DNA from: Streptomyces sp. SAI-127
GTDB taxonomy: Bacteria > Actinomycetota > Actinomycetes > Streptomycetales > Streptomycetaceae
Assembly: GCF_029894425.1 (NCBI RefSeq)
Contig: NZ_JARXYJ010000001.1
Location: 8,824,501-8,888,500 of the forward strand
Reading direction: 5' to 3'
Length of the DNA: 64,000 nt
In this document: piece after piece, positions 14,559 to 42,075 of the stretch
Position numbering within the stretch: the first letter of the stretch is position 1
How the letters are laid out: every line of letters starts with the position of its first letter
The notes under the pieces: generated by a model
Databases searched by the model: none
Seen by the model: the letters and a program-made list of their open reading frames with translations, nothing else
What the model was told of the DNA's origin: nothing
Program-made: the position numbers and the translations under genes

Positions 14559-14625
14559 TTGACCCATGGCTCACCCTCCCCGATGCTCAGTTGCGCATGG
14601 TGATGCGTGTATCGGATGAGGCAAC
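14559..14625 (+). promoter_or_regulatory. mscR promoter with tandem IclR-type boxes
   Basis: The -35 is TTGACC (14559-14564) and the -10-like GATGCT (14582-14587), with a 17-bp spacer. Two bases later begin two 17-bp boxes, GTTGCGCATGGTGATGC (14590-14606) and GTATCGGATGAGGCAAC (14609-14625), each with one perfect half-site of GTTGC-N7-GCAAC. The 19-bp period equals that at the other island promoters. Position over the transcription start suggests repression. Confidence 0.6.
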
Positions 14626-14651
14626 CCGTAGATCTGTCGGAGGAGTGACCC

Positions 14652-15737
14652 ATGGCTCATGAGGTTCGTGCTGTCGTCGCCCGGGCGAAGGGCGCCCCGG
14701 TCTCCGTCGAGACGATCGTGGTTCCCGATCCGGGGCCCGGCGAGGCGCTGGTGAAGGTCGAGGCGTGCGGTGTCTGTCACACCGATCTCCACTATCGGGA
14801 AGGCGGGATCGGCGACGACTTCCCCTTCCTGCTCGGGCACGAGGCGGCCGGCCGCGTCGAAGCCGTCGGAGAGGGCGTCACCGGCGTCGAACCGGGTGAC
14901 TTCGTCATCCTCAACTGGCGCGCTGTCTGCGGTACGTGCCGGGCCTGCGCCAAGGGCAGGCCGTGGTACTGCTTCGCCACCCACAACGCGACCCAGCGGA
15001 TGACACTGCTCGACGGCACTCCGCTCACGCCCGCCCTCGGCATCGGCGCCTTCGCGGAGAAGACCCTGGTCGCCGCGGGGCAGTGCACCAAGGTGGACCC
15101 GGCGGCCCCGGCGACCGCCGCGGGACTCCTCGGCTGCGGTGTCATGGCGGGCTTCGGCGCGGTCGTGAACACCGGTGCCGTCGGTCGTGGGGACTCCGTC
15201 GCCGTCATCGGCTGCGGCGGCGTCGGCATGGCCGCGGTCGTGGGCGCGCGGCTCGCCGGCGCGACCAAGGTCATCGCCGTCGACGTCGACCCGCGCAAGC
15301 TGGACCGGGCCACGCGGATGGGTGCCACCCACACCGTCGACGGCTCCACGGCGGACGTCGTGGCGGCGGTGCGCGAACTGACCGGCGGCTTCGGCGCCGA
15401 CGTGGTCGTGGAGGCGGTCGGCCGCCCCGAGACGTACGAACAGGCCTTCTATGCCCGCGACCTCGCCGGCACCGTCGTCCTCGTCGGTGTGCCGACCCCG
15501 GAGATGAAGCTGGAGCTGCCGCTGCTCGACGTCTTCGGGCGGGGCGGCGCGCTGAAGTCCAGCTGGTACGGCGACTGTCTGCCCTCCCGCGACTTCCCTG
15601 CCCTGATCGACCTCTACCTGGGCGGACGTTTCGACCTGGACGCCTTCGTCTCCGAGACCGTCGACCTCGGGGACGTGGAGAAGGCGTTCGAGAAGATGCA
15701 CCGTGGTGAGGTGCTGCGGTCCGTGGTGGTGCTGTGA
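14652..15737 (+). CDS. mscR: S-(hydroxymethyl)mycothiol dehydrogenase
   Basis: A 361-residue zinc-dependent alcohol dehydrogenase family enzyme. It matches the mycothiol-dependent formaldehyde dehydrogenase, which oxidises the formaldehyde-mycothiol adduct with NAD. Catalytic zinc ligands lie in ACGVCHTD (C42) and LLGHEAAG (H63); the structural zinc Cys cluster is [15 protein letters not shown]; the nucleotide fold is [23 protein letters not shown] precedes the ATG. In this island it would remove formaldehyde released by N-demethylation of betaine and dimethylglycine. The S-formylmycothiol hydrolase often found next to it is absent here. Confidence 0.9.
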
Positions 15738-15753
15738 GAGGCAGGCGTCATCC

Positions 15754-15892
15754 GTTTCCTATCGCGCATCTTGTTGCGCACAAGGCAACGCGGAGCCATG
15801 CGCATGTGCGTCCTCTGGACGCCTTGACAAGGGTTTGTGGGCGCCCTCAAACTGACGTTGCGTTCAACGCAATCCGTTTCGCTATACGCACC
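15754..15892 (+). promoter_or_regulatory. Rieske operon promoter with four IclR-type boxes
   Basis: There are two tandem pairs of the 17-bp box. The upstream pair is GTTTCCTATCGCGCATC (15754-15770) and GTTGCGCACAAGGCAAC (15773-15789). The downstream pair is GTTGCGTTCAACGCAAT (15857-15873) and GTTTCGCTATACGCACC (15876-15892). The period inside each pair is 19 bp. Between them lies a promoter, TTGACA (15824) with -10-like CAAACT (15848). Two flanking operators would allow looping or combined activation and repression. Confidence 0.65.
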
Positions 15893-15900
15893 GAGGTGTC

Positions 15901-16263
15901 ATGATGATTCCCGCGTGCCGTCTCGTGGATCTTCCTCGAGGCGAGGCCTACCGGCTCGACATCGATCCGCCGGTCTCGGTGTTCCACACCGACGACGGCG
16001 AGGTCTTCGCCATCGACGACACCTGCACCCATCAGGACGCCTCGCTCGCCGACGGCTGGCTGGAGGGCTGCGAGGTCGAATGCCCGCTGCACGCCTCGAA
16101 GTTCGACCTGCGGACGGGCGCCGTCGACGCCCCGCCGGCCAAGCGCCCGGTCCGCACCCACGAGGTCCACGTCGAGGACGGCATGATCTACGTCCAGCTG
16201 TCCCTGGACGCGCCCAACCTGCCGCCCTGCGTCGCGGCCCGGCTCGCCGGCGGACCCGCGTGA
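15901..16263 (+). CDS. Rieske 2Fe-2S ferredoxin component
   Basis: A 120-residue soluble Rieske ferredoxin. Cluster ligands are C42 and H44 (TCTHQDASL) and C61 and H64 (VECPLHASKF). It carries electrons from the flavin reductase encoded next to the oxygenase downstream. Two ATGs are possible; the second, one codon later, is better spaced from GAGG. The stop overlaps the reductase start (GTGA), so the two are coupled. Family relatives serve aromatic dioxygenases, but the promoter boxes and neighbours place this one in quaternary-amine demethylation. Confidence 0.88.
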   Translation: MMIPACRLVDLPRGEAYRLDIDPPVSVFHTDDGEVFAIDDTCTHQDASLADGWLEGCEVECPLHASKFDLRTGAVDAPPAKRPVRTHEVHVEDGMIYVQLSLDAPNLPPCVAARLAGGPA

Positions 16264-17420
16264 GGACGGTCGCCGTGGTCGGCGCCTCGCTCGCCGGTCT
16301 GTCGGCGGCGCGCTCGCTGCGGAAACAGGGCTACGACGGGCGGCTCGTCGTCATCGGCGACGAACTCCACCGCCCGTACGACCGGCCCCCGTTGTCCAAG
16401 GAGTTCCTGGCCGGCTCCCTCGCAGAGGCCGATCTCGCGCTGGAGCCGGACACCGAGGACCTGCGGGCCCAGTGGCTGCTCGGTGTCCGCGCCGTCGGCC
16501 TCGACGGCCCGCAGCGCGCCGTACGGCTCGCCGACGGCAGCGAGGTACGGGCGGACGGCGTCGTCATAGCGACCGGCGCCGCCGCCCGGACCCTGCCCGG
16601 CATGGACGGCCTGGCCGGGGTGCACACCCTGCGCACTCTGGACGACGCCCGCGCCCTGCGCGACGAACTGATCCTCGGGGGACGGCTGGTGGTGATCGGC
16701 GGTGGCTTCATCGGCGCCGAGGTCGCCTCCACCGCGTACGCCCTCGGGCTCGACGTGACCGTGGTGGAAGCGGCCCCGACCCCGCTGGCCGGACCGCTCG
16801 GCGAGACCATGGGCGAAATCGTCTCCGCCCTCCACGCGGACCACGGCGTACGGCTGTTGTGCGGGGTGGGTGTCAAGGGACTGAGCGGCGAGAGCCGCGT
16901 CGACGCCGTCCTGCTGGAGGACGGCCGCAGCGTACCCGCCGACATCGTGGTGGTGGGGGTCGGTGCCCGCCCGTGCGTCGAATGGCTCGCGGGCTCGGGC
17001 ATCGAGCTCGACGACGGCGTCAAGTGCGGCGCCGACGGCCGCACCAGCCTGGCCGGTGTGGTCGCGGTCGGTGACTGCGCCTCCTGGTACGACCCGCGCG
17101 CGGGCCTGCACCGCCGGGTCGAGCACTGGACCGGCGCACGGGAGCGGCCCGACGCGGCCGTGGCCGCACTGCTGGCGGGCGGCGCGGTGGAACCGAGCGC
17201 GCCGAGGCCGCCGTACTTCTGGTCGGACCAGTACGGCGTGAAGATCCAGTTCGCCGGTCACGCGGCCGGTGCCGACAGTGTGACGATCGAGGAAGGCGCC
17301 CGGGACGACCGCAACGTCCTGGCCGTCTACCGGCGTTCCGGGCATCCGGTCGCCGTGCTCGGGATGAATCAGCCGCGGCTGTTCATGCGCTGGCGCAAGC
17401 AGCTCGCCGCCGCGGCCTGA
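16260..17420 (+). CDS. FAD-dependent ferredoxin reductase
   Basis: A 386-residue NAD(P)H:ferredoxin reductase of the putidaredoxin-reductase type. It has an N-terminal FAD fold (VAVVGASLAGLSAARSLR), the family motif RPYDRPPLSKEFLAG, an NADH fold (LVVIGGGFIGAEVAS), the second FAD motif VAVGDCASWY near residue 270, and a reductase C-terminal domain. The GTG start overlaps the ferredoxin stop. It should pass electrons from NADH to the Rieske ferredoxin. With the oxygenase it makes a three-component system, unlike the two-component GbcAB known in Pseudomonas. Confidence 0.9.
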   Translation: MRTVAVVGASLAGLSAARSLRKQGYDGRLVVIGDELHRPYDRPPLSKEFLAGSLAEADLALEPDTEDLRAQWLLGVRAVGLDGPQRAVRLADGSEVRADGVVIATGAAARTLPGMDGLAGVHTLRTLDDARALRDELILGGRLVVIGGGFIGAEVASTAYALGLDVTVVEAAPTPLAGPLGETMGEIVSALHADHGVRLLCGVGVKGLSGESRVDAVLLEDGRSVPADIVVVGVGARPCVEWLAGSGIELDDGVKCGADGRTSLAGVVAVGDCASWYDPRAGLHRRVEHWTGARERPDAAVAALLAGGAVEPSAPRPPYFWSDQYGVKIQFAGHAAGADSVTIEEGARDDRNVLAVYRRSGHPVAVLGMNQPRLFMRWRKQLAAAA

Positions 17421-17508: not shown

Positions 17509-18636
17509 GTGACCTCGACCAGCCTGCCGGACAGTCTGATCGCCACCCTCCCCGGCGTTTCCTACACGGATCCCGGGATCTTCGCCCAGGAGCAGGAGCG
17601 CATCTTCGAAGCGATGTGGTTCTGCGCCGTCCGCGCCGCTGACCTGCCCAGGCCCGGTGCCTTCAAGACGGTTGAGGTGGGCCGCGAGAGCATCCTCGTC
17701 ACGCGGGCACGGGACAACTCGATCCGCGCCTACTTCAACGTCTGCCGGCACCGGGGCGCCAAGCTGTGCACCGAGGAGTCCGGCGAGGTCAAGCGAGCCT
17801 TCCAATGCCCGTACCACGCCTGGACGTACGACCTGACGGGCAAACTCGTCGCGGCGCCGAACCTGACGAAGATGCCCGACGTGGGCCGTACCGAGTACGG
17901 CCTCGCGAGCGTGGCGGTGCGCGAATGGCTGGGCTACGTGTGGGTGTGCCTCGCGGAGGACCCGCCGCCCTTCGACGAGGTCGTCCAGGACGTGATCGCG
18001 CGCCTGGGCGACACCGAGTCGATCGAGCACTACGACATCGGGGGTCTTGAGGTCGGCCGGCGGATCGTCTATGACGTGAAGGCGAACTGGAAACTCATCG
18101 TCGAGAACTTCATGGAGTGCTACCACTGCGCGACGATCCACCCCGAACTCACCGAGGTGCTGCCGGAGTTCGCCGACGGATACGCGGCCCAGTACTACGT
18201 GGGCCACGGCGCGGAGTTCGGTGAGGACGTCAGGGGCTTCACCGTCGACGGCTCGGAGGGGCTGGACCGGATCCCGGGAGTCTCCGAGGACCAGGACCGC
18301 CGCTACTACGCGATCACCGTGCGGCCGCAGGTGTTCATCAACCTCGTGCCCGACCATGTGATCTTCCACCGGATGTACCCGGTCGCCGCCGACCGCACGA
18401 TCGTCGAGTGCGACTGGCTGTATCTGCCGCATGTCGTCGAGAGCGGCAAGGACGTCAGCAGGTCGGTGGAGCTCTTCGACCGGGTCAACCGGCAGGACTT
18501 CGACGCGTGCGAGCGCACGCAGCCCGGGATGAGCTCACGGCTGTACGCCAAGGGCGGCGTCCTGGTGCCCAGCGAGCACCACATCGGCGAGTTCCACGAC
18601 TGGGTCCAGGCCCGGCTGGGGGCTCAGCCCAGGTAA
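17509..18636 (+). CDS. Rieske non-heme iron oxygenase, probable betaine N-demethylase
   Basis: A 375-residue oxygenase alpha subunit. Rieske ligands are C79, H81, C100 and H103 (CRHRG and CPYHAW). The mononuclear iron site is in NFMECYHCATIHPE with H206 and H211. The residue that bridges the two metal sites, Asp in classical aromatic dioxygenases, is Glu203 here; Glu at this place is reported for the carnitine enzyme CntA, which acts on quaternary amines. The predicted reaction is glycine betaine to dimethylglycine plus formaldehyde. GTG start after GAGGAG. Its last 13 bases overlap the convergent iclR gene. Stachydrine or carnitine are alternative substrates. Confidence 0.82.
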   Translation: MTSTSLPDSLIATLPGVSYTDPGIFAQEQERIFEAMWFCAVRAADLPRPGAFKTVEVGRESILVTRARDNSIRAYFNVCRHRGAKLCTEESGEVKRAFQCPYHAWTYDLTGKLVAAPNLTKMPDVGRTEYGLASVAVREWLGYVWVCLAEDPPPFDEVVQDVIARLGDTESIEHYDIGGLEVGRRIVYDVKANWKLIVENFMECYHCATIHPELTEVLPEFADGYAAQYYVGHGAEFGEDVRGFTVDGSEGLDRIPGVSEDQDRRYYAITVRPQVFINLVPDHVIFHRMYPVAADRTIVECDWLYLPHVVESGKDVSRSVELFDRVNRQDFDACERTQPGMSSRLYAKGGVLVPSEHHIGEFHDWVQARLGAQPR

Positions 18637-19421
18637 CCCATGCGGTGGCTGATCTCCTCGGCGCCCTTGACCAGTACCGGAGCGAGCTCGTGCAGACGCT
18701 CCTCGGAGAGCCGGTACGCGGGCCCTGAGGCGCTGAGCGCCGCGATGACCTCTCCGTCCCGGTCGCGGACCGGCGCGGCCATGGCGTGCAGGCCGAGCTC
18801 CAACTCCTCCAGGGCCCAGGCGTATCCGCGCTCCCGGGCCTCGGCGAGGTTCTTCTCGAGCTTCGTCTTCGCGGTGATGGTGCGCGGGGTGACCTTCTTC
18901 AGGCCGGTCTCGGTCAACAGCGCGGCGCGCTCCTTGGCGGGCAGATGGGCCAGCAGGATCTTGCCACTCGACGTGGCGTGCAACGGGGTCAGCTGGCCGA
19001 CCCAGTTCTGCGCGGTGACGGCACCCGGGCCGCGCACCTGGTAGAGGTTGACCGCGTAACGCTCCTGCATCACGGCGAGGTTCACCGTCTCGCCGATCTC
19101 CTCCGCCAGGTCCTCGCAGACCGGGCGGCTCTGCTGGGTGATGTCGATGCGTCCGGTGACCGCGCCGGCCAGGCGCACGATGCCGAAACCGAGACGGTAC
19201 TTGCCGCGCTCACCCGCCTGTTCCACCAGACCGCGCGCTTCCAGGGCGCCGAGGAGGCGGAACGCCGTGGACTTGTGAACGTCGATCTCGGCCGCCACCT
19301 CGCTGACGCCGGCCTCGCCGCGCTGGGCGAGGATCTCCATCACGTGAATGGCCCGGTCGACGGACTGCACCCCGCCGGTCGACGACCCTGTCGTTTCGTT
19401 ATCCGGGTTGTAGTTGCTCAC
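18624..19421 (-). CDS. IclR family regulator, first copy
   Basis: A 265-residue IclR protein. The N-terminal winged helix-turn-helix is in residues about 12-75 (GEAGVSEVAAEIDVHKSTAF), with a C-terminal GAF-like effector domain. It is a close paralogue of the IclR at the other end of the island: both share the SVDRA start of the DNA-binding domain, long identical runs in it, and a similar HRxGYLG C-terminus. The GTG start is chosen because TATAGT ends 7 nt upstream, implying a leaderless mRNA; an extension upstream would cross the promoter. Its own operator overlaps the start codon. It probably senses an island metabolite such as betaine, choline or dimethylglycine (inference). Confidence 0.88.
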   Translation of the reverse strand: MSNYNPDNETTGSSTGGVQSVDRAIHVMEILAQRGEAGVSEVAAEIDVHKSTAFRLLGALEARGLVEQAGERGKYRLGFGIVRLAGAVTGRIDITQQSRPVCEDLAEEIGETVNLAVMQERYAVNLYQVRGPGAVTAQNWVGQLTPLHATSSGKILLAHLPAKERAALLTETGLKKVTPRTITAKTKLEKNLAEARERGYAWALEELELGLHAMAAPVRDRDGEVIAALSASGPAYRLSEERLHELAPVLVKGAEEISHRMGYLG

Positions 19422-19433
19422 AACGCAACTATA
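19413..19433 (-). promoter_or_regulatory. Leaderless promoter and autoregulatory box of the first iclR
   Basis: The box GTTGCTCACAACGCAAC (19413-19429) has perfect GTTGC and GCAAC halves. It covers the start codon (19419-19421) and touches the -10 TATAGT (19428-19433, minus strand). A bound regulator would block both promoter and start, so negative autoregulation is likely. Confidence 0.7.
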
Positions 19434-19529
19434 CGGGGAGTACGGAACAGTCTGTTTACCCTCGGGACGCTGACCAGGGTCTTTTGCCTGGTAGGGGGTG
19501 TGCAAGTGTTGTGCGGTTGATCCGGGCGT

Positions 19530-21188: not shown

Positions 21189-21422
21189 AGTGCCTCCCTG
21201 CCTGCCCGGACACTGTGACAAGCCAGGCTGACCTGCGCAAGAGCCGTCCCGTGCGGGACGTCGAACCCCTGGTGGCGGGCCGCTGCCCGAGCCGCCTGAC
21301 ACAACGTCCGAACTCCGCGTCCCCGCTGGACAGATCAGGCGTTGTCGACGCTCGGGCACCCCGAGATGCTCGGGCTACGGGAGCAGACCACGCAGTCCAC
21401 CACCCACGGCTTGGAGACGACC

Positions 21423-22691
21423 ATGACCGCACTGTCGCCGCACCTTCGCCAGGCCACGCCCGTCGTGGCGGCCAGGGGCGAGGGCGTCCACCTCTACGGC
21501 GAGGACGGCCGCCGCTACCTCGACTTCACCGCCGGGATCGGCGTCACCAGCACCGGACACTGCCACCCGAGGGTCGTGGCGGCGGCACAGGAGCAGGTGG
21601 GCACGCTGATCCACGGCCAGTACACGACGGTCATGCACCGGCCGCTGCGGCAGCTGGTCGACAAGCTCGGCGAGGTGCTGCCGACCGGCCTGGACAGCCT
21701 GTTCTTCACGAACTCGGGCAGCGAGGCCGTGGAGGCGGCGCTGCGGCTGGCCCGGCAGGCCACCGGCCGCCCGAACATCCTGGTCTGTCACGGCGGCTTC
21801 CATGGTCGTACCGTCGCGGCCGCCGCCATGACCACCTCCGGCACCCGCTTCCGCTCCGGTTTCTCGCCGCTGATGAGCGGGGTGGTCGTCACCCCGTTCC
21901 CGTCGGCCTACCGCTACGGCTGGGACGAGGAGGCGGCGACCCGGTTCGCGCTCCAGGAGCTGGACTACACGCTGCAGACGATCTCGTCGCCCGCCGACAC
22001 GGCGGCGATCATCGTCGAGCCGGTGCTCGGCGAGGGCGGCTACGTCCCCGCGACCCGCGCCTTCCTGGAGGGCCTGCGGGAGCGGGCGGACCGCCACGGG
22101 TTCCTGCTGATCCTGGACGAGGTGCAGACCGGCGTCGGTCGCACCGGCCGCTTCTGGGGCCACGACCACTTCGGTGTCACGCCGGACATCCTCGTCACCG
22201 CCAAGGGCCTGGCCAGCGGCTTCCCGCTGTCCGGCATCGCGGCCTCCGAGGAGCTGATGGCGAAGGCGTGGCCGGGCTCGCAGGGCGGTACGTACGGCGC
22301 CAACGCGGTGGCGTGCGCGGCGGCCTGCGCCACGCTCGACGTCGTACGGGACGAGAAGCTCGTCGAGAACGCCGAGGCGATGGGAGCACGGCTGCGCCAG
22401 GGCCTGGAGGCGGTCGCCGACCGGACCCCGGCCATCGGGGACGTACGCGGCCTCGGTCTGATGCTGGCCAGCGAGTTCGTCACCGAGGACGGCAGCCCGG
22501 ACCCGGAGACCGCCGCCCGCGTACAGCGCGCCGCGATCGACGAGGGCCTGCTGCTGTTGCTGTGCGGCGCCTGGAACCAGGTCGTGCGGATGATCCCGGC
22601 GCTCGTGATCGACGAGACGGCGGTGGACGAGGGACTTCAGGCGTGGGCGACCGCCGTGGAGGCCGGTACATCGGGAGCGGCTGACCGATGA
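21423..22691 (+). CDS. Class III PLP aminotransferase, GabT-like
   Basis: A 422-residue fold-type I aminotransferase. Landmarks are FTAGIGVTSTGHCHP, FTNSGSEAVEAALRLAR, the PLP-binding ILDEVQTGVGRTG and the Schiff-base lysine in VTAKGLASGFPLSG. It moves the omega-amino group of a substrate such as 4-aminobutyrate to 2-oxoglutarate. The ATG follows GGAG. It overlaps the next gene (ATGA), making a three-gene coupled operon ending in succinate-semialdehyde dehydrogenase; that context supports GABA. Ornithine, taurine or beta-alanine aminotransferase are alternatives. Confidence 0.87.
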   Translation: MTALSPHLRQATPVVAARGEGVHLYGEDGRRYLDFTAGIGVTSTGHCHPRVVAAAQEQVGTLIHGQYTTVMHRPLRQLVDKLGEVLPTGLDSLFFTNSGSEAVEAALRLARQATGRPNILVCHGGFHGRTVAAAAMTTSGTRFRSGFSPLMSGVVVTPFPSAYRYGWDEEAATRFALQELDYTLQTISSPADTAAIIVEPVLGEGGYVPATRAFLEGLRERADRHGFLLILDEVQTGVGRTGRFWGHDHFGVTPDILVTAKGLASGFPLSGIAASEELMAKAWPGSQGGTYGANAVACAAACATLDVVRDEKLVENAEAMGARLRQGLEAVADRTPAIGDVRGLGLMLASEFVTEDGSPDPETAARVQRAAIDEGLLLLLCGAWNQVVRMIPALVIDETAVDEGLQAWATAVEAGTSGAADR

Positions 22692-31000: not shown

Positions 31001-31010
31001 CGGAGATGTC

Positions 31011-31060: not shown

Positions 31061-31096
31061 GTTGCGTGGCTCGCAACCTGGTGCGTATGACGCTAC
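31061..31096 (+). promoter_or_regulatory. Tandem IclR-type boxes upstream of betA
   Basis: GTTGCGTGGCTCGCAAC (31061-31077) has both halves perfect. GGTGCGTATGACGCTAC (31080-31096) has two mismatches in ten conserved positions. The period is 19 bp. The betA promoter elements themselves are not clear. Confidence 0.65.
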
Positions 31097-31145: not shown

Positions 31146-32816
31146 ATGGCTCCTCAGCAGTACGACTTCGTCATCGTCGGCGGTGGATCGGCCGGCAGCG
31201 CACTGGCCAACCGGCTCTCCGCCGACCCGGGCAACCGGGTGCTGGTCCTGGAGGCCGGCCGGCCCGACTACCCGTGGGACGTCTTCATCCACATGCCCGC
31301 GGCACTGACCTACCCGATCGGCAGCCGCTTCTACGACTGGAAGTACGAGTCCGAACCCGAGCCGCACATGGGCGGCCGGCGCGTCTACCACGCCCGCGGC
31401 AAGGTGCTGGGCGGCTCCAGCAGCATCAACGGCATGATCTTCCAGCGCGGAAACCCCTTGGACTACGAGCGCTGGGCCGCCGACCCCGGCATGGAGACCT
31501 GGGACTACGCGCACTGCCTGCCGTACTTCAAGCGCATGGAGAACTGTCTCGCGGCCGACCCCGACGACGAGTTCCGCGGCCACGACGGACCGCTCGTCCT
31601 GGAACGCGGCCCGGCCACCAACCCGCTCTTCACCGCCTTCCAGAAGGCCACCGAGGAGGCCGGGTACGCGCCCACGGACGACGTCAACGGCTACCGGCAG
31701 GAGGGCTTCGCCAAGTTCGACCGCAATGTCCACCGCGGGCGCCGCCTGTCGGCCTCGAAGGCGTATCTGAAGCCCGCCCGCAAACGCCCCAACCTCACGG
31801 TCACGACCCGCGCCCTCGTCACCCGCGTCCTGTTCGAGGGCAAGCGGGCGGTCGGCGTCGAGTACCGGCGCGGCAAGGGTGCGCCGCAGCAGGTGCGCGC
31901 CAAGGAGGTCATCCTCTGCGGTGGCGCGATCAACTCCCCGCAGCTGCTCCAGCTGTCCGGCGTGGGCAACGCCGGGGAACTGAGCGCGCTCGGCATCGAC
32001 GTGGTCCACGACCTGCCGGGCGTCGGCGAGAACATGCAGGACCACCTGGAGGTGTACATCCAGTACGCCTGCAAGCAGCCCGTCTCCATGCAGCCGTACC
32101 TCGCGAAATGGCGCGCCCCCTTCATCGGCCTGCAGTGGCTCTTCCGCAAGGGTCCCGCCGCGACCAACCACTTCGAGGCCGGCGGCTTCGCCCGCAGCAA
32201 CGAGGACGTGGACTACCCCAACCTGATGTTCCACTTCCTGCCCATCGCGGTCCGCTACGACGGCTCCGTGCCCGCGGGCGGACACGGCTACCAGGTGCAT
32301 GTGGGACCCATGTACTCCGACGCCCTCGGCTCGGTGAAGATCAGGAGCAGGAACCCGGACGAGCACCCGGCGCTGCGCTTCAACTACCTGTCCACCGAGC
32401 AGGACCGCCGCGAGTGGGTCGAGGCGATCCGCGTCGCGCGGAGACTGCTCAACCAGCCCGCCCTCGCCCCCTACAACGGCGGGGAGATCTCGCCCGGACC
32501 GTCCGTCGAGAGTGACGAGGAGATCCTCGCCTGGGTCGCCAAGGACGGCGAGACGGCCCTGCACCCCTCCTGCACCTGCAAGATGGGCACCGACGAGATG
32601 GCCGTCGTGGACCCCGCCACCATGCGCGTGCACGGAGTCGAGGGGCTGCGTGTCGTCGACGCGTCGGTGATGCCCTATGTCACCAACGGAAACATCTACG
32701 CGCCGGTGATGATGATCGCGGAGAAGGCGGCCGACCTCATCCTCGGCAAGGAGCCGCTTCCTGCTTCCAAGGCCGCGTACTACCGGCACCGGGACGCCCG
32801 GACGCAGGCGGGGTAA
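31146..32816 (+). CDS. betA: Choline dehydrogenase, GMC oxidoreductase
   Basis: A 556-residue GMC flavoenzyme that oxidises choline to betaine aldehyde. It has the N-terminal FAD fold ([18 protein letters not shown]), the GMC signature [18 protein letters not shown], the second signature [15 protein letters not shown], and the active-site region HPSCTCKMG with [17 protein letters not shown]. The ATG is preceded by GACGAGG. Length and motifs fit BetA. With betB downstream it supplies glycine betaine to the Rieske demethylase. Electrons should enter the respiratory chain. Confidence 0.9.
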
Positions 32817-32922: not shown

Positions 32923-32987
32923 TTGACGTGGGTTCATGCATTCTCCAGAGTGTTCCACCACAAGCAATGCGGTGCGCGATGCGCAAC
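32923..32987 (+). promoter_or_regulatory. betB-proVWX promoter with tandem IclR-type boxes
   Basis: The -35 is TTGACG (32923-32928) and the -10-like CAGAGT (32946-32951), with a 17-bp spacer. Directly after come GTTCCACCACAAGCAAT (32952-32968) and GGTGCGCGATGCGCAAC (32971-32987), again with 19-bp period. This is the same geometry as at mscR and dmg, and fits repression of the betB-transporter operon. Confidence 0.6.
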
Positions 32988-33012: not shown

Positions 33013-34482
33013 GTGGCAGACCTGTATGTGGACGGGAAGTGGCGGGAGCCGGTGGCCGGAGGCCATCGGGAGATCCGATGTCCCGCCGACGGCACGCTTT
33101 CCGCGACCGTGTCCGAAGGGACCCGCCCCGACACCGAGGCGGCCGTCGCCGCCGCCCGCCGGGCCTTCGACGAAGGGCCCTGGCCGCGCACCCCGGAGCG
33201 TGAGCGCGGCGCCCTGCTGCTGCGCACCGCCGACCTGCTCGAGCGTGACGCCAAGGAGTTCGCGCGCGCCGAATCGCTGGACACCGGCAAGCGGCTGGTG
33301 GAGAGCGAGTACGACATCGCCGACGTCGTCTCCTGTCTTCGCTATTACGGCGGGCTCGGCGGCACCGACGCCGGCCGTGTGATCGACACCGGACGGGACG
33401 ACGCCGTCAGCCGCGTGGTCTACGAGCCGATCGGTGTGTGCGGTCTGATCACACCGTGGAACTACCCTCTTCTGCAAGCGAGTTGGAAGGTCGCTCCGGC
33501 CCTTCTGGCCGGTGACACGATCATCCTCAAGCCCAGCGAGCTCACCCCTTCCACCGCGATCCTGCTGATGAAGGCGCTGGAGGAGGCCGGACTGCCCGCC
33601 GGTGCGGCCAACCTCGTCCTCGGTACCGGACCCGAGGTGGGTGCGCCCCTCTCCGAGGATCCCCGCGTCGACATGGTCTCCTTCACCGGGGGCGTGGAGA
33701 CCGGCAAACGGATCATGGCGACGGCCGCCGCGAGCGTGAAGAAGGTCGCGCTGGAACTCGGCGGCAAGAATCCCAACGTCGTCTTCGCCGACGCCGACTT
33801 CGAGACGGCCGTGGACTTCGCGCTCACGGCCGTCTTCCTGCATTCGGGACAGGTCTGCTCGGCCGGTGCCCGGCTGATCGTCGAGGACTCCCTGCACGAC
33901 CGCTTCGTCGACGAGGTGGTCCGCCGGGCCCGGCGGATCCGCCTCGGCGGGCCCTTCGATCCCGAGGCCGAGACCGGGGCTCTGATCTCGGCGCAGCACC
34001 TGGAGAAGGTCGAGGCGTACGTCGCCGCAGGACTCGCCGAAGGTGCCGTCCTGCGCTGCGGCGGTGAGCGCCCCGACGACCCCGCCCTCGCGAACGGCCA
34101 CTACTACCCGCCCACCGTGCTCGACGAGTGCCGGCAGGACATGCGGGTGGTGCACGAGGAGTCCTTCGGGCCGGTGCTGACCGTGGAACGCTTCTCCGGT
34201 GAGGACGACGCCGTACGCATCGCCAACGACACGGAGTACGGACTCGCCGGTGCCGTCTGGACGCAGGACGCCGGGAAGGCCCAGCGGGTGGCCCGCCGAC
34301 TGCGGCACGGCACCGTGTGGATCAACGACTACCACCCCTATGTGCCACAGGCCGAATGGGGTGGCTTCGGGCACTCCGGTGTGGGCCGGGAACTGGGACC
34401 GACCGGCCTTGACGAGTACCGCGAGCCCAAGCACATCTGGCAGAACATCCAACCCCGGCCGCAGCACTGGTTCCGCGGCTGA
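33013..34482 (+). CDS. betB: Betaine aldehyde dehydrogenase
   Basis: A 489-residue aldehyde dehydrogenase. The nucleophile is C282 ([12 protein letters not shown]) and the base E248 (LELGGKNPN); [19 protein letters not shown] and [14 protein letters not shown] fit the betaine aldehyde branch. The GTG start follows GAAGGG at 8 nt; upstream codons would cross the promoter boxes. It converts betaine aldehyde to glycine betaine using NAD. It lies 20 bases before the importer genes, so synthesis and uptake of betaine share a promoter. Confidence 0.9.
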
Positions 34483-34502: not shown

Positions 34503-35591
34503 ATGACCCCAACCCAGACCGAGGTGCCGCCGCGCCGCGGCACCCCCGAGGACGCGGCGCCCACGCCCGTCATATCCGTACGCGGGCTGTGGAAGGTGTT
34601 CGGGCCGAAGGCGGACCAGGTACCGGACTCCGAGGAGCTGCGCGGGCTCACCCGCCGCGAACTCATGGACCGCACCGGCTGCACCGCCGCCGTGCGTGAC
34701 GTGCACTTCGACGTCGCGCCCGGCGAGGTCTTCGTCGTCATGGGACTGTCCGGCTCCGGCAAGTCCACCCTGGTGCGCTGTCTGACCCGGCTGATCGAGC
34801 CCACCGCCGGTGAGATCGTCTTCGAGGGCGAGGACATCCGGGACGCCGACGAGCGGCGGCTGCGCGAACTGCGGCGCAGCAAGTTCTCCATGGTCTTCCA
34901 GCACTTCGGTCTGCTGCCCCACCGCCGCGTCGTCGAGAACGTGGCGTTCGGGCTGGAGATCCGCGGCATGGGCCGGGCCGAGCGCACCAGGCGGGCGCTG
35001 GAGGTGGTCGAACTCGTGGGCCTGTCGGGGTACGAGAACTCCTATCCCGACCAGCTCTCCGGCGGTATGCAGCAACGCGTGGGCCTGGCACGGGCGTTGG
35101 CCGGGGATCCGGACGTCCTCCTCTTCGACGAGCCGTTCTCGGCGCTCGACCCGCTGATCCGCCGTGACATGCAGAGCGAGGTCATCCGGCTGCACCACGA
35201 GGTCGGCAAGACGATGGTGTTCATCACCCACGACCTCTCCGAGGCGCTGAAGCTCGGCGACCGGATCCTCATCATGCGCGACGGCAAGATGGTCCAGTGC
35301 GGCACCGGCGACGAACTCGTGGGCGCCCCCGCCGACGACTACGTACGTGACTTCGTGAAGGACGTGGCGCGCGGCGATGTGCTGACCCTGCGCTGGATCA
35401 TGCGTCCGGCGACACCCGAAGACCCCCTGGACGGGCCCGAGCTGGGCCCCGACGTCGTGGTGAAGGAGGCCACCCGGGCGGTGCTAGCGGCCGACAAGCC
35501 CGTCAAGGTCGTCGAGAACGGCAAGCTGATCGGCATCGTCGGCGACGAGGAGATCCTCGCGGTGGTCGCCGGGCAGGAAGGCGACGCGTGA
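34503..35591 (+). CDS. proV: Glycine betaine/proline ABC importer ATPase
   Basis: A 362-residue ProV/OpuAA-type ATPase. It has a typical N-terminal extension ([18 protein letters not shown]), Walker [10 protein letters not shown], signature [16 protein letters not shown], Walker [15 protein letters not shown] and a C-terminal regulatory part that resembles one CBS repeat. It powers uptake of betaine or a related quaternary amine. Its stop overlaps the permease start. Confidence 0.92.
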
Positions 35592-37600
35592 TGACCGTCG
35601 TCATGGAGAAACCCGGGCAACCGGGGCAGACGAAGCAGGCCGAACCGCCTCCGCCCGCAGCTCCCGTACGCAGGATCAGCCGGTCCATGGTGGTCGCCGC
35701 GATCCTGGTCGTCTGGCTCGTCCTCTTCGCCGTACTGCGCGGAAAGCAGACCCTGTCGCTGGCCGCGGCCGACCTCACCGATCTGCACCGCTGGCTCAAC
35801 GACGTCAACGACTCCATCGGCGCCAACCGCAACTCCAACCCGCTCTTCCTGTACGGCTTCAACGAGATCCGACTGGTCATCGACAACCTGGTGACCTTCG
35901 TGCAGGACCTGATCTCCCAGCCGTCCGGTGACCGCCCGCTCCCGCAGATCGGCTGGCTCGGAGTCGTCGGCCTCGCCGGCTACGTCTCCTGGGCGGTGGC
36001 CAACTGGCGGGTCGCGCTGCTGGCCGTGGCCGGCTTCACCTTCCTCGGGCTGCAGGGCCTGTGGCAGGAGAGCATGGACACCCTGGCCCTGACCCTCTCG
36101 GCGGTCCTGGTGGCGCTGCTGTTCGCCGTCCCGCTGGGCGTGTGGGCGGGCCTGTCCCCACGGGCCAACCGGATCGTCACGCCGTTCCTCGACTTCATGC
36201 AGACGATGCCGACCTTCGTCTACCTGGCGCCGCTGACCCTGTTCTTCCTGATCGGGGGGGCCTCCGCCACCATCGCCACCGTCATCTACGCGGCACCGCC
36301 GGCCATCCGCATCACCGCGCACGCCATCCGTTCCGTGCCCGCGACGACGGTCGAGGCCGCCGCCTCGATGGGCGCCACCCGCAGACAGTCGCTGCTGAAG
36401 GTCCTGTTGCCGATGTCCAAGCGGACCGTGGTGATGGGCATCAACCAGACCATCATGGCCGCCCTGGCCATGGTGACCATCGCGGCCCTGATCGACGCCC
36501 CCGGGCTCGGCAAGACCGTCGTGCAGGCCCTGCAGTCCCTCGACGTCGGTACGGCCTTCAACGCGGGCCTCGCCATCGTCGTCATGGCGATCGTTCTGGA
36601 CCGGGTCACCACCGCGGCGAGCGGACGCGCGGAGGCGGCCCGGCGCTCCGGCAGCGCCCTGCTCAAGTGGCGGCGGCACCTGCTCGCCGCCGGGGGAGTG
36701 GTGGCGGCCGTACTCGTGTATCTGTCGCACACCTATCTGTGGGCGGCCGAGTTCCCCGGCGACGGCAGCACCGGCGGCAACATCGCCAAAGCGGCCGACG
36801 ACGTGACCACCTGGGCGCAGGACAACCTGTCGGGGCTGACCAACGGTTTCCGCGACGCCATCACCAACGGCCTGCTCAACCCGTTCCAGACGCTGCTGAC
36901 CGACTCGCCGTGGTGGCTCGTCGGCGCCGCCCTGATCGGGATCGCGGTGGTGCTGGGCGGCTGGCGCGCCGGCATCACCACCGCCGTGTGCGTGGGACTC
37001 CTGGTCGCCACCGGAGTGTGGTCGGACGGTATGACGACCCTGGCCTCGACCGTCGTGGCGACCGTGCTGGTCATGCTGCTCGGTGTCGTCTTCGGGGTGT
37101 GGATGGGACGCAGCGCGCTGGTGGACCGGATGGTGCGGCCCACCCTCGACGCGGCCCAGGTCATGCCGCCGTTCGTCTATCTCGTGCCGTTCCTCGCCCT
37201 GTTCGGCGCGACCCGGTTCACGGCCATCGTCGCCGCGATCGTCTACGCGGCCCCGGTCGCCATCAAGATCATCGCCGACGGGGTGCGGACCGTGCCCGCG
37301 ACCACGGTCGAGGCGGCGACCTCCACCGGGTGCAACACCTGGCAGATCATCACCAAGGTCCAGCTGCCGATGGCCCGCAGCGCCCTGACGCTCGCGACCA
37401 ACCAGGGCCTGATCTACGTGCTGTCGATGGTCGTCGTCGGCGGCCTGGTCGGCGCCGGGGCCCTCGGCTACGACGTGGTCGCCGGCTTCTCGCAGGGACA
37501 GCTGTACGGCAAGGGCCTGGCGGCCGGGCTGGCCATCGTGCTGCTCGGCGTCATGTTCGACCGGATCACTCAAGCAGCGGCTCGCCGCACCAGTAATTGA
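35588..37600 (+). CDS. proW: Duplicated betaine ABC importer permease
   Basis: A 670-residue membrane protein containing two ProW-like permease domains in tandem, about residues 150-340 and 470-660. Each has its own EAA loop ([19 protein letters not shown] and [19 protein letters not shown]). Most ProW/OpuAB proteins have a single domain and act as dimers; here the dimer appears fused in one chain. GTG or the adjacent ATG is the start, overlapping the proV stop. Confidence 0.9.
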
Positions 37601-37613
37601 GGAGCACGACACG

Positions 37614-38579
37614 ATGGCAAGACACTGGCGAGCCGGCGCGGCCGGCCTGGCCGTCCTCGGCCTCACCCTCACGGCCTGCGGCGGCGCGAAGGTCGGTGAC
37701 TCCTCGGAGGCCGGCGGCTCGGGCAGCTCCGGCAAGTGCGGCACCTTCAACCTCGCGATCAACCCGTGGGTGGGCTACGAGGCCGACGCGGCGGTCGTCG
37801 CGTACGTCGCCGAGCACGACCTGAAATGCAAGGTCACCAAGAAGGACCTCAAGGAGGAGATCGCCTGGCAGGGCTTCGGCACCGGCGAGGTCGACACCGT
37901 CCTGGAGAACTGGGGCCACGACGACCTGAAGAAGAAGTACATCACCCAGCAGAAGACCGCCGTGGAGGCCGGCCCGACCGGCAACAAGGGCATCATCGGC
38001 TGGTACGTGCCGCCGTGGCTGGCCAAGGCCCACCCGGACATCACCGACTGGAAGAACCTCAACAAGTACGCCGCCGAGTTCAAGACCTCGGAGTCCGGCG
38101 GCAAGGGCCAGCTCCTGGACGGCGACCCGTCGTACGTCACCAACGACGAGGCGCTGGTGAAGAACCTGAAGCTCGACTTCAAGGTGGTGTACGCGGGCAG
38201 CGAGACCGCGCTGATCCAGGCGTACCGCAACGCCGAGAAGAACAAGGAGTGGGTGATCGGCTACTTCTACGAGCCGCAGTGGTTCCTGTCCGAGGTGCCG
38301 CTGGTCAAGGTCGACCTGCCCGCGTACAAGACGGGCTGCGACGCCGATCCGGCCAAGGTCGCCTGTGACTATCCCGTCTACGACCTCGACAAGATCGTCA
38401 GCGCGAAGTTCGCGAAGTCCGGCAGCCCCGCCTATGACCTGGTGAAGAAGTTCAACTGGACGAACGACGACCAGAACACCGTGGCCAAGTACATCGCGGT
38501 GGACAAGATGACGCCGGACGCGGCGGCCAAGAAGTGGGTCGACGCCAACCGCGACAAGGTCGACGCCTGGATCAAGTAG
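37614..38579 (+). CDS. proX: Betaine-binding lipoprotein
   Basis: A 321-residue substrate-binding lipoprotein of the OpuAC/ProX type, with a lipobox ending LTLTAC (C22). Aromatic segments NPWVGYEADA, GWYVPPWLAKAHPD and EPQWF can supply the Trp cage that binds a trimethylammonium group. The protein is tethered outside the membrane and feeds ProVW. It is followed by a strong hairpin, so the transport operon ends here. Confidence 0.92.
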   Translation: MARHWRAGAAGLAVLGLTLTACGGAKVGDSSEAGGSGSSGKCGTFNLAINPWVGYEADAAVVAYVAEHDLKCKVTKKDLKEEIAWQGFGTGEVDTVLENWGHDDLKKKYITQQKTAVEAGPTGNKGIIGWYVPPWLAKAHPDITDWKNLNKYAAEFKTSESGGKGQLLDGDPSYVTNDEALVKNLKLDFKVVYAGSETALIQAYRNAEKNKEWVIGYFYEPQWFLSEVPLVKVDLPAYKTGCDADPAKVACDYPVYDLDKIVSAKFAKSGSPAYDLVKKFNWTNDDQNTVAKYIAVDKMTPDAAAKKWVDANRDKVDAWIK

Positions 38580-38590
38580 CCCGCTCGTGG

Positions 38591-38675: not shown

Positions 38676-38742
38676 TTGACACCCACCGGCACGGCGGGCA
38701 CATTGAGTTGCGCAGCCTGAATCGTGTTGCGTACAAAGCAAC
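38676..38742 (+). promoter_or_regulatory. dmg promoter with tandem IclR-type boxes
   Basis: The -35 is TTGACA (38676-38681) and the -10-like CACATT (38699-38704), with a 17-bp spacer. Two bases later come GTTGCGCAGCCTGAATC (38707-38723) and GTTGCGTACAAAGCAAC (38726-38742), with 19-bp period. The spacing from -35 to the first box matches the mscR promoter base for base. Confidence 0.68.
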
Positions 38743-38760: not shown

Positions 38761-41199
38761 ATGGCGGGACCCCGAGTGGTCATCATCGGAGCGGGCGTCG
38801 TCGGCGCGGCACTCGCCGACGAGATCTCCGCACGCGGCTGGACCGAGGTGACCGTGGTCGACCAGGGCCCGCTCCCGGCCACCGGGGGATCGTCCTCGCA
38901 CGCCCCGGGCCTCGTCTTCCAGGCCAACTCCTCCAAGACCATGACCGAGCTGGCCCGCTACACCGTCGAGAAGTTCTGCTCGCTCGACGTCGACGGACAG
39001 CCCTGCTTCCTCCAGGTCGGCGGCCTCGAAGTGGCGACCACGCCCGAGCGCGTCACCGAACTCCACCGCCGCCAGGGCTGGCTCACCTCCTGGGGCGTGG
39101 AGTCACGGATCCTGACCGCCGACGAGTGCGTCGACAAGCACCCCCTGGTCAACCGCGACCGGGTCCTCGCCGGTCTCCACATCCCGACCGACGGCCTCGC
39201 CAAGGCCGTCCTCGCCGTCGAGGCGCAGATCCGCCGGGCCACCGAGCGCGGAGTGACGTTCCTGGCCCGCCACGAGGTCCTCGACGTCCTCCAGGCCGAC
39301 GGGGAAGTGACCGGAGTCCGGACAGACCGGGGCGACCTGCAGGCCGACATCGTCGTGTGCTGCGCCGGCATCTGGGGCCCGAGGATCGCCCGCATGGCCG
39401 GCATGAACCTCCCGCTCACCCCGCTCGCCCACCAGCTCGCCTGGACCGGCCCGGTCCCGGCGCTCGAGGGCCAGACCGAGGAGGCGGTGCGCCCGATCCT
39501 GCGCCACCAGGACGCCGACCTCTACTACCGCGACCGCCACGACACCCTCGGCATCGGCTACTACGGCCACCGCCCCCTGCCCATCACCGCCGACGAGATC
39601 CTCTCCGTCGACGAGGCCGACGGGATGCCGTCGGTCCTGAAGTTCACCGAGGACGACTTCGCGGACGCCTGGACCGAGACGCAGTCACTGCTGCCGGCCA
39701 CCCGCGAGGCCAAGATCGAGGAGGCCATCAACGGCCTGTTCTCCTTCACCACCGACGGCCTGCCCCTCCTCGGCGAGTCCCCGGACGTCAAGGGCTTCTG
39801 GGTCGCCGAGGCCGTCTGGGTCACCCACTCCGCCGGCGTCGGACGAGCCGTCGCCGAGTGGCTGGTCGACGGCCACTGCTCCTCCTTCGACCTCCACGAG
39901 TGCGACGTCAACCGCTTCGAGCCGCACCAGCTCGCCCCGGAGTACGTACTGGCCCGCGACTGCCAGAACTTCGTGGAGGTCTACGACATCCTGCACCCGC
40001 TGCAGCCCTCCGGTGACCCGCGTCCCCTGCGCACCAGCCCCTTCTACGCCCGCCAGCAGGAGCTGGGCGCCTTCTTCCTGGAGGCGAACGGCTGGGAGCG
40101 GCCGCACTGGTACGAGGCCAACGCGGGACTGGTGGAAGGCCGTTCGATCGTCACCCCGAACGACTGGGCCGCGCGGTACTGGTCGCCGATCGTCGGTGCC
40201 GAGGCCCAGGCCACCCGCGAGACCGTCGCGATGTACGACATGACGGCCCTCAAGCGCCTGGAGGTGAGCGGACGGGGAGCTGCCGACTTCCTGGAGCGGC
40301 TGTGCACCGGCAAGGTCGCCAAGTCCGTCGGCTCGGTGACGTACACCCTGCTGCTGGACCACGACGGAGGCATCCGCAGCGACATCACCGTCGCGCGGCT
40401 GGCCCCCGACCTCTTCCAGGTCGGCGCCAACGGCAACCTCGACCTCGACTGGTTCACCCGCCACCTCCCCGCCGACGGCACGGTCCAGGTCCGTGACATC
40501 ACCCCCGGCACCTGCTGCGTCGGCCTGTGGGGACCTCTCGCCCGGGACGTCCTCCAGCCGCTCACGGACGAGGACTTCTCGGCCGCGGGCCTGAAGTACT
40601 TCCGCGCCAAACGCGCTCACATCGGGTCCGTCCCGGTGACGGCCATGCGCCTGTCGTACGTCGGTGAGCTCGGCTGGGAGCTGTACACCACCGCCGACCA
40701 GGGCCTGAAGCTGTGGGACACGCTGTGGCGGGCGGCCCGTCCGCTGGGCGGGATCGCGGCCGGGCGGGGCGCCTTCAACAGCCTCCGCCTGGAGAAGGGC
40801 TACCGCTCCTTCGGCACCGACATGACCTATGAGCACGACCCGTACGAGGCCGGGGTCGGCTTCGCCGTCAAGGCCGACAAGGAGGACTTCGTCGGGAAGG
40901 CGGCACTGGAGCGACGCAAGGCCGACGTGCGGCGGAAGCTGACCTGCCTGACGATCGAGGACCCGCGGGCCGTCGTCATGGGCAAGGAGCCGGTGTACGA
41001 CGGGCAGCGCCCGGTCGGTCACGTCACCAGCGCGGCCTTCGGCCACACGATCGGCAAGGGCATCGCGTACGCCTGGCTGCCCGCGGAGCTCGCTGAGGCC
41101 GGCCGTGCGCTGCACATCGGTTACTTCGACCAGCGCGTGGAGGCCGTCGTGGCCGAGGAGCCGCTGTTCGACCCGGCGATGTCCCGCCTTCGGGGGTGA
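38761..41199 (+). CDS. dmg: Dimethylglycine oxidase
   Basis: An 812-residue two-domain flavoenzyme closely resembling Arthrobacter globiformis dimethylglycine oxidase along its whole length, from VVIIGAGVVGAALADEISAR to the final MSRLRG. Residues 1-about 420 form the FAD oxidase domain; GGSSSHAPGLVFQ contains the His (H47) matching the covalent flavin site. The C-terminal half is a GcvT-like tetrahydrofolate domain (MYDMTALKRLEVSG, RLSYVGELGWELYT). It makes sarcosine and either formaldehyde or methylene-tetrahydrofolate. RBS GGAGGTG. Sarcosine dehydrogenase is the main alternative. No further sarcosine-degrading gene lies in the window. Confidence 0.92.
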   Translation: MAGPRVVIIGAGVVGAALADEISARGWTEVTVVDQGPLPATGGSSSHAPGLVFQANSSKTMTELARYTVEKFCSLDVDGQPCFLQVGGLEVATTPERVTELHRRQGWLTSWGVESRILTADECVDKHPLVNRDRVLAGLHIPTDGLAKAVLAVEAQIRRATERGVTFLARHEVLDVLQADGEVTGVRTDRGDLQADIVVCCAGIWGPRIARMAGMNLPLTPLAHQLAWTGPVPALEGQTEEAVRPILRHQDADLYYRDRHDTLGIGYYGHRPLPITADEILSVDEADGMPSVLKFTEDDFADAWTETQSLLPATREAKIEEAINGLFSFTTDGLPLLGESPDVKGFWVAEAVWVTHSAGVGRAVAEWLVDGHCSSFDLHECDVNRFEPHQLAPEYVLARDCQNFVEVYDILHPLQPSGDPRPLRTSPFYARQQELGAFFLEANGWERPHWYEANAGLVEGRSIVTPNDWAARYWSPIVGAEAQATRETVAMYDMTALKRLEVSGRGAADFLERLCTGKVAKSVGSVTYTLLLDHDGGIRSDITVARLAPDLFQVGANGNLDLDWFTRHLPADGTVQVRDITPGTCCVGLWGPLARDVLQPLTDEDFSAAGLKYFRAKRAHIGSVPVTAMRLSYVGELGWELYTTADQGLKLWDTLWRAARPLGGIAAGRGAFNSLRLEKGYRSFGTDMTYEHDPYEAGVGFAVKADKEDFVGKAALERRKADVRRKLTCLTIEDPRAVVMGKEPVYDGQRPVGHVTSAAFGHTIGKGIAYAWLPAELAEAGRALHIGYFDQRVEAVVAEEPLFDPAMSRLRG

Positions 41200-41214
41200 G
41201 CGGGTCATAGCCAT

Positions 41215-41240
41215 GGTCCGGGCGCCGGGGCGCCCGGACC
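41215..41240. terminator. Bidirectional terminator between dmg and the second iclR
   Basis: GGTCCGGGCGC pairs with GCGCCCGGACC across a 4-nt loop. It lies 15 bases after the dmg stop and 16 before the iclR stop, so it can serve both convergent genes. Confidence 0.78.
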
Positions 41241-41256
41241 CAGCGCCCGGACGGCG

Positions 41257-42048
41257 TCAGCCCAAGTAGCCGAGCCGGTGGCTGAGTTCGTCGGCGCCCT
41301 CGATCAGCACCGGGGCCAGCTCGTGCATCCGCTCCTCGGTGAGACGGAAGGCGGGCCCCGAGGCGGTGAGGGCGGCGACGACCTTGCCGTCGCCGGAACG
41401 AACCGGCGCCGCCATGGCGTTGAGGCCCTCCTCGTACTCCTCGACCGTCAGGGCGTAACCCTGCTCGCGGACCCGGACCAGCTCCGCCTCCAGCTGCTGC
41501 CGGGAGGTCAGCGTGCGTGCGGTCATCCGCTCGAGCCCGGCCGCGGCGACGAGCTCGTCCCGGCGCTGCTCCGTGAGATGCGCGAGCAGGACCTTGCCGC
41601 TCGACGTGCAGTGCATCGGCGTCAGCCGGCCGACCCAGTTCTGCGCGGTGATGGCGGACCGGCCGCGCACCTGGTCGAGGTTGATCACATGGTGGGACTC
41701 CAGGACCGCGATGTTCATCGTCTCGCCCAGTTTGTCGGCGAGGCGCTCGCAGATCCCGCGGCCGTGCTTGGTGACGTCGATGCGCCCGGTGACCGCCCCG
41801 GCCAGGCGCACGATGCCGAAGCCGAGGCGGTACTTCCCCCGCTCACCCTCCTGCTCCACCATCCCGTGCGCCTCCAGCGCGCCCAGCAGACGGAACGCGG
41901 TGGACTTGTGGACGTCGATCGCCTCGGCCACTTCACTGACGCCTGCCTCGCCACGCTGGGCGAGGATCTCCAGCACGGTGACAGCCCGGTCGACGGACTG
42001 CACACCGCCGCTGGACGTGCCCCCGGACTCGGTACCGTAGCTGCTCAT
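41257..42048 (-). CDS. IclR family regulator, second copy
   Basis: A 263-residue IclR protein with winged helix-turn-helix (about 15-75, GEAGVSEVAEAIDVHKSTAF) and effector domain, a near twin of the first island IclR. The DNA-binding domains are almost identical, so both probably recognise the same GTTGC-N7-GCAAC box; the effector domains differ more (for example NLAVMQERYAVNL versus NIAVLESHHVINL), so the ligands may differ. The ATG lies 7 nt after the -10 TAGAGT, implying a leaderless mRNA. It marks the right border of the island. Confidence 0.88.
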   Translation of the reverse strand: MSSYGTESGGTSSGGVQSVDRAVTVLEILAQRGEAGVSEVAEAIDVHKSTAFRLLGALEAHGMVEQEGERGKYRLGFGIVRLAGAVTGRIDVTKHGRGICERLADKLGETMNIAVLESHHVINLDQVRGRSAITAQNWVGRLTPMHCTSSGKVLLAHLTEQRRDELVAAAGLERMTARTLTSRQQLEAELVRVREQGYALTVEEYEEGLNAMAAPVRSGDGKVVAALTASGPAFRLTEERMHELAPVLIEGADELSHRLGYLG

Positions 42049-42075
42049 GGCGGAACTCTATGCGAGCAGGTCAAC
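42040..42075 (-). promoter_or_regulatory. Promoter and tandem boxes of the second iclR
   Basis: Plus-strand GCTGCTCATGGCGGAAC (42040-42056) covers the ATG and TATGCGAGCAGGTCAAC (42059-42075) follows at the 19-bp period. Both are weaker copies (two and three mismatches). The -10 TAGAGT lies between or over them. The placement over the start codon copies that of the first iclR. Confidence 0.5.

Follow-up and report, generated by a model that had tools for sequence, protein, structure and literature searches.

A 64,000-nucleotide stretch of the genome of Streptomyces sp. SAI-127 (the window; contig NZ_JARXYJ010000001.1, positions 8,824,501 to 8,888,500 of the forward strand) contains an island of genes for the degradation of choline and glycine betaine whose promoters are marked by a common tandem operator. 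This operator is 36 bp long and is composed of two palindromic 17-bp boxes separated by two bases (GTTGC-N7-GCAAC, N2, GTTGC-N7-GCAAC), which gives four arms; six copies of it are located ahead of mscR, the Rieske operon (two copies), betA, betB-proVWX and dmg, and related sites lie over the starts of two genes encoding IclR-type proteins, iclR1 and iclR2. In our reading, to which a probability of about 0.77 is given, IclR1, and IclR2 where it is present, would repress choline/glycine-betaine catabolism by binding the four-arm operator as a dimer of dimers. The shared DNA code is specific within the genome, and its conservation extends over actinobacterial families; it links the two IclR proteins to a near-complete degradation pathway and provides testable targets, a candidate class of inducer, and natural three- and four-arm sites for studying how IclR tetramers read tandem operators. 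The known regulators of glycine-betaine or choline catabolism, GbdR in Pseudomonas and BetI in Proteobacteria, belong to the AraC and TetR families, respectively, and use different operators.

In the window the pairs begin at positions 14590 (5 mismatches over the 20 fixed bases), 15754 (2), 15857 (3), 31061 (2), 32952 (3) and 38707 (2), and in all six the boxes are exactly 19 bp apart, start to start, as had been claimed for the catabolic promoters in the original prediction, made from the bare letters of the window. Single boxes are not enriched: with up to 2 mismatches the window contains 34, the expectation from shuffled sequences being 29.3 ± 5.5 and 20 of 100 shuffles reaching 34, and in the whole genome 163 boxes with at most one mismatch compare with 395 for the reversed pattern. 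The significance therefore rests on the pairing, and all the claims made here are based on pairs. Exact single boxes amount to 9 in the genome, 5 of them outside the island; one of these, at 8,943,604, was dropped as a candidate, since position arithmetic puts it in the 3'-terminal part of a gene for an aldehyde dehydrogenase-like protein. When the pair pattern was searched for with up to 3 mismatches, a limit exceeded by the mscR pair, the 10.7-Mb genome yielded 5 matches, all of them in the island, and the reversed-pattern control none, so that no unrelated pairs of similar score came to light. The possibility that the repeats are due to chance or to the composition of a G+C-rich sequence, which the frequency of single boxes (no higher than in shuffles or for the reversed pattern) might suggest, is counted as already refuted, given that such pairs occur neither in the rest of the genome nor in the reversed control, and that both spacing and position are conserved.

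A symmetric matrix, built from the sites of relatives with the nearest one (L001) excluded, placed the six tandem copies and the two iclR sites at ranks 1–8 of the window, bearing out the eight locations first proposed. Seven of them scored 20.9–38.4 bits and the iclR2 site 12.4, the maximum in the reversed window being 12.9 bits. When each of five gene classes was left out in turn, its site still ranked 3rd–6th of 63,965. Summed over the eight sites, the mismatches in arms 1–4 were 4, 14, 6 and 3 of 40 each, the outer arms being kept and arm 2 varying. In the per-gene averages of the relatives the outer arms are also kept at mscR and dmg, but betA is best at arms 1 and 2 and betB at arm 4, so that the preference for outer arms is not a general rule.

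The operator consensus, GTTGCGcnacncGcAac / GtTgCGcaatacGCAAC, fits a known type. For IclR group 1, Suvorova and Gelfand (2021, PMC8222616) describe the motif GTT-11-AAC, including the 17-bp palindrome GTTYCRYW3RYGRAAC, with sites that overlap the gene start or lie close to it and tandem sites 18–22 nt apart, mainly 19–21, in 94 of 181 ortholog groups, an arrangement explained by tetramer binding. Both the palindrome length and the 19-bp spacing found here match that group, whereas position 4 is G (GTTGC) instead of Y and arm 2 is often degraded. Among the operators of its Table 1, the nearest relatives are those of TphR from Comamonas sp. E6, with which the core TTGCGY-N3-RYGCAA is shared, and MhpR from E. 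coli, whose palindrome GGTGCAC-N3-GTGCAC is close to the weaker GGTGC arms of the present sites; however, TphR serves terephthalate catabolism, with a single site listed, and MhpR phenylpropionate catabolism. The main text of that paper makes no mention of choline or betaine; its supplementary tables may list the regulon. A literature search, from whose reach subscription papers were mostly excluded, found no report of an IclR-type choline/betaine regulon. Thus, the statement of the original prediction that no description of this operator was known has to be narrowed: the motif type and the tandem arrangement are already published for the IclR family, and it is the choline/betaine regulon itself that was not found in print.

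The loci of relatives were obtained by searching with the GbcA-like protein of the island, the best 80 of at least 592 being used (79 from Streptomyces and one from Actinacidiphila). They are phylogenetically related, and their counts are not independent samples. Left out of the counts were duplicate upstream sequences, genes matching from beyond the first 8 residues (for upstream sites), iclR genes with a match starting after residue 14, and IclR matches of 200 residues or fewer. When the surroundings of boxes with no more than one mismatch were searched for a second box, 224 distinct pairs were found at 19 bp, no other distance within 60 bp giving more than 6, and a 19-bp pair was present in 77 of the 80 loci; the reversed control gave 1 pair at 19 bp, its five largest peaks (up to 28) falling at multiples of three. 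Sites with up to 5 mismatches precede mscR in 52/54 cases, fdx (the first gene of the Rieske operon) in 63/64, betA in 52/53, betB in 47/49 and dmg in 23/23, and at this threshold none precedes the operon-internal genes proV (0/47), proW (0/34) and proX (0/40). Outside the genus, 20 loci of the class, from six families, were centred on an iclR gene of 50–72% identity. Here 21 distinct pairs, from 13 of the 20 loci, were found at 19 bp, and no other distance gave more than 3; allowing up to 4 mismatches, pairs were present in 15 loci, 14 of them with the pair upstream of a gene matching a query protein, three of the six families being represented. The spacing of 19 bp is therefore conserved inside and outside the genus, as it should be if the predicted operator is real, and the operator code as a whole is, judging by these loci, conserved across actinobacterial families.

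The placement of the operator with respect to promoter elements is that expected of a repressor. Among the relatives, with only sites of up to 5 mismatches being counted, a TTGAC -35 element starts 29–33 bp ahead of the operator in 47/49 cases at mscR, 48/59 at fdx, 40/40 at betB and 23/23 at dmg. In the window, all on the forward strand, the mscR operator (14590..14625; mismatches in arms 1–4 of 0, 3, 2 and 0) has TTGACC at 14559–14564, the main operator of the Rieske operon, p2 (15857..15892), TTGACA at 15824–15829, the betB-proVWX operator (32952..32987) TTGACG at 32923–32928, and the dmg operator (38707..38742) TTGACA at 38676–38681. If a 17-bp spacer is counted from TTGAC, the operator begins 0–4 bases after the -10 element, 4 bases in the case of fdx, and the earlier claim of 0–2 bases at mscR, dmg and betB holds. 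At these four promoters the operator would cover the transcription start point, and the upstream TTGAC implies repression. The betA operator (31061..31096, forward strand), found with both the pair pattern and the matrix, probably overlaps the promoter itself, for which TTGCGT and TATGAC/TATAGC, inside the operator, are the candidate elements.

A comparable overlap is found at the regulator genes, both on the reverse strand. The site over the iclR1 start (19413..19448; arm mismatches 1, 4, 0 and 0) consists of a perfect 17-bp box and an upstream outer arm, arm 2 being lost; that over the iclR2 start (42040..42075; 1, 2, 1 and 1) is weak by itself and is supported by the orthologs. Each start had been predicted to carry a single box. 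The box is confirmed, but it is not quite single, since an outer arm, GTTCC in iclR1 and GTTGA in iclR2, lies 19 bp further upstream, with the inner arm mostly lost. In the relatives, the box (arms 3 and 4, up to 3 mismatches together) is present at 72/81 iclR1 and 11/12 iclR2 starts, and both outer arms are within one mismatch at 51/81 and 10/12, respectively. A TATAGT-like -10 element runs from the last bases of arm 2 across the spacer into the first bases of arm 3, and is followed six bases on by the start codon (as viewed in 45 of the 81 rows for iclR1 and in each of the 12 for iclR2, one of the latter, L141, being out of register), for which reason the transcripts look leaderless.

The Rieske operon bears, in addition, an auxiliary operator, p1 (15754..15789, no strand assigned), 103 bp upstream of p2. 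In 45 of 68 distinct fdx promoters of the relatives an upstream site with up to 6 mismatches was found, where single-base shuffles of the 200 bases upstream would predict 0.4. In 41 of these 45 the distance between p1 and p2 is 100–103 bp. The sequence between p1 and the -35 element has diverged in these promoters. Such an arrangement would suit either looping of the DNA over about ten turns or an activator site.

Several observations weigh against the repressor reading. At betA, TTGAC was found at the standard place in 0/52 cases; both outer arms are not kept at 30 of the 81 iclR1 starts; the match of arm 2 at the iclR starts hardly exceeds chance, if at all (on average 3.3 mismatches of 5 in iclR1 and 3.8 in iclR2); the score of the iclR2 site lies at the background of the matrix; and 5 of the 20 class-level loci contain no pair with up to 4 mismatches. 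Moreover, p1 stands, in 41/68 distinct promoters, where an activator could bind, and the IclR family includes activators and dual regulators (PMC8222616), a dual role having been proposed for BhcR as well (PMC11323563). IclR1 and IclR2 might thus be activators or dual regulators, the ligand-bound protein recruiting polymerase from an upstream operator and the start-proximal sites serving for fine tuning. This is considered unlikely, since at four of the five catabolic promoters there is a good TTGAC -35 and the operator lies just downstream of the -10, the position of a repressor, and since a p1-like site was sought systematically at the Rieske operon only.

The assignment of the operator to IclR1 and IclR2 is strongly indirect, resting on co-occurrence, the operators over the iclR starts, the shared recognition helix and one exceptional genome. 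In a set of 150 genomes of the genus, including that of SAI-127, an iclR1 ortholog (best copy with at least 80% identity) is present in 34, of which 33 carry 3–7 pairs with up to 3 mismatches. Among the 116 genomes without it, 12 have one or two pairs, which can be taken as background, since the reversed pattern gives one or two matches in 16 of the same 116 (24 matches in 23 of all 150). Some of these 116 (L129 and L138–L140) have a diverged parallel cluster with betB, gbcA, dmg, mscR, iclR, fdx and red, in which the regulator is 56–61% identical; with four mismatches each, the sites of this cluster miss the pair threshold. The exception, G061 (L126), possesses iclR1 without orthologs of betA (best match 39%) or gbcA (best E 3.6e-5), the two genes covered by the ortholog search; its IclR1 keeps the recognition helix, and the operator over the gene start has both outer arms perfect, which ties the operator to the iclR gene and not to those enzymes.

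Co-occurrence alone cannot separate a regulator from its targets, as the genes form one island, and all the evidence for the association comes from sequence. The boxes could accordingly be read by a regulator encoded elsewhere, with the IclR proteins as mere targets or bystanders, an alternative that we regard as very improbable: tandem 17-bp GTT-11-AAC palindromes at 19–21 nt are typical of IclR proteins (PMC8222616), a box is found at both iclR starts, G061 retains iclR1 with its operator in the absence of the two enzyme orthologs, and 14 of the 20 iclR-centred loci of other families have a pair upstream of a query-matching gene.

IclR1, the probable repressor (18624..19421, reverse strand; GTG start, apparently leaderless, start region conserved), and its paralogue IclR2 (41257..42048, reverse strand; 67% identical to IclR1) both match PF09339, the N-terminal helix-turn-helix domain, and PF01614, the C-terminal effector domain, above cut-off, as corresponds to members of the family. 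They share 61 of 69 residues in the helix-turn-helix region and 108 of 179 elsewhere. The recognition helix VHKSTAFRLL is identical in 61/61 IclR1 rows at 80% identity or more, 6/6 at 70–79% and 9/9 IclR2 rows, i.e., in all 76 rows at 70% or above from the 80 loci of the relatives. At greater distance it is found in 3 of 5 same-genus rows at 50–65% and in 8 of 21 class-level rows; of the other class-level rows, 8 end in RLV and the remainder deviate at one to several positions. An extra copy with 67–70% identity to IclR1 was found in just 9 of the 34 genomes with iclR1, and IclR2 therefore looks optional.

As regards the ligand, the best NCBIfam match of both proteins is the BhcR model NF045644, though at 203.5 (IclR1) and 194.4 bits (IclR2) its cut-off of 350 is not reached. 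BhcR from Paracoccus denitrificans is likewise an IclR-family protein, with autoregulation proposed and with Ala at pocket position 146, also found here, but its ligand is glyoxylate (PMC11323563). Glyoxylate, suggested by this match, was rejected as the ligand because pocket residues 160 and 212 are changed: in an alignment with the residues of Table 1 of that paper, positions 160, 161 and 212 are Ser, Ser and Ala/Thr instead of the Gly, Ala/Ile and Asp of a glyoxylate/pyruvate pocket, Gly160 and Asp212 of BhcR being thus replaced. Positions 143 (Ala instead of Leu/Met/Thr) and 154 (Thr instead of Leu/Ser) differ as well; Leu220, as in IclR and AllR, Ala146, Ser241 and 239 Ser (Thr in IclR2) are kept. 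A Trp occupies the position of IclR residue 149 in 91/91 rows examined. A trimethylammonium-type ligand would fit the larger pocket with this Trp, and such a compound is the candidate for IclR1 and IclR2.

The mechanism that we infer, as to binding protein, tetramer, repression, ligand and looping, is the following. IclR1 or IclR2 would bind the four-arm, 36-bp operator as a dimer of dimers, a few bases past the -10 element and over the transcription start at mscR, fdx, betB and dmg, and overlapping the promoter at iclR1 and iclR2 (both with three good arms) and probably at betA, so that RNA polymerase would be excluded or held. In the Rieske operon p1, about ten helical turns upstream, probably strengthens the repression by looping. 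An inducer from the pathway, most likely choline, glycine betaine or dimethylglycine, would release the protein, and with it uptake, oxidation, demethylation and formaldehyde removal would be turned on together, as well as the genes of the regulators themselves. A more ambitious version, which is tentative and which we do not hold to be probable, takes the operator as a composite in which the outer half-sites anchor the IclR tetramer and the inner arms, arm 2 in particular, can vary and so accommodate promoter elements; it would represent one ancient actinobacterial choline/betaine code, with a betaine-sensing pocket around the invariant Trp and a DNA loop of approximately ten turns at the Rieske operon.

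The regulon of the island comprises mscR, a three-part Rieske oxygenase system, betA, betB with a ProVWX-type transporter, and dmg, all on the forward strand. The gene mscR (14652..15737) encodes an S-(hydroxymethyl)mycothiol dehydrogenase for formaldehyde removal (TIGR03451, 667 bits, cut-off 513). The Rieske system is made up of the ferredoxin fdx (15901..16263; PF00355), a ferredoxin reductase (16260..17420; PF07992 and PF14759) and a GbcA-like oxygenase (17512..18636, start codon provisional), a probable glycine betaine demethylase (NF058607, 221.7 bits, below the cut-off of 670). Choline dehydrogenase is encoded by betA (31146..32816; TIGR01810, 857 bits, cut-off 732), and a betaine-aldehyde dehydrogenase-like protein by betB (33013..34482; TIGR01804, 591 bits, below the cut-off of 669). 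Since the GbcA-like oxygenase and BetB remain under their family cut-offs, these names rest partly on context. The genes proV, proW and proX (34503..38579; PF00005, PF00528 and PF04069) specify a betaine-type ABC transporter, and dmg (38761..41199; PF01266, PF16350, PF01571 and PF08669) a dimethylglycine dehydrogenase/oxidase-like flavoprotein with a folate-binding domain.

In 115 loci, 27 further pairs with up to 4 mismatches were located away from the listed genes. Five of the downstream proteins were profiled (L005, L045, L021, L137 and L132) and found to be a BCCT-family transporter (twice), a dihydropteroate synthase, an L-serine ammonia-lyase and a formyltetrahydrofolate deformylase (PurU); the remaining downstream genes were judged by eye. 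For both BCCT proteins a betaine-specific model was the best match but under its cut-off. These added targets suit a pathway in which betaine is converted by way of glycine and serine into pyruvate and one-carbon units are carried by folate; in relatives, betaine catabolism is joined in this way to serine and folate one-carbon genes. The serine dehydratase (ammonia-lyase), PurU and BCCT genes of the SAI-127 genome were also considered as operator targets and rejected, their best matches having 7, 6 and 7 mismatches in loci of about 1.5 kb on each side. In three loci (L136, L137 and L069) a further GbcA-like gene lies near an iclR2-like gene with its own tandem operator.

Between iclR1 and betA, the block 19530–31039 encodes a PucR-type regulator, a class-III aminotransferase, an FAD oxidase/4Fe-4S protein, an aldehyde dehydrogenase, a pirin, a luciferase-like monooxygenase and a TPR protein. 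It had been described as an inserted γ-aminobutyrate (GABA) module devoid of boxes, which is right as far as operator pairs are concerned, none being found in it, but not strictly so for single boxes, of which it contains two, each with two mismatches. Its insertion is supported by the relatives, where iclR1 and betA are no more than 300 bp apart in 48 of the 53 loci holding both, and the block of 19.5–31 kb therefore looks inserted.

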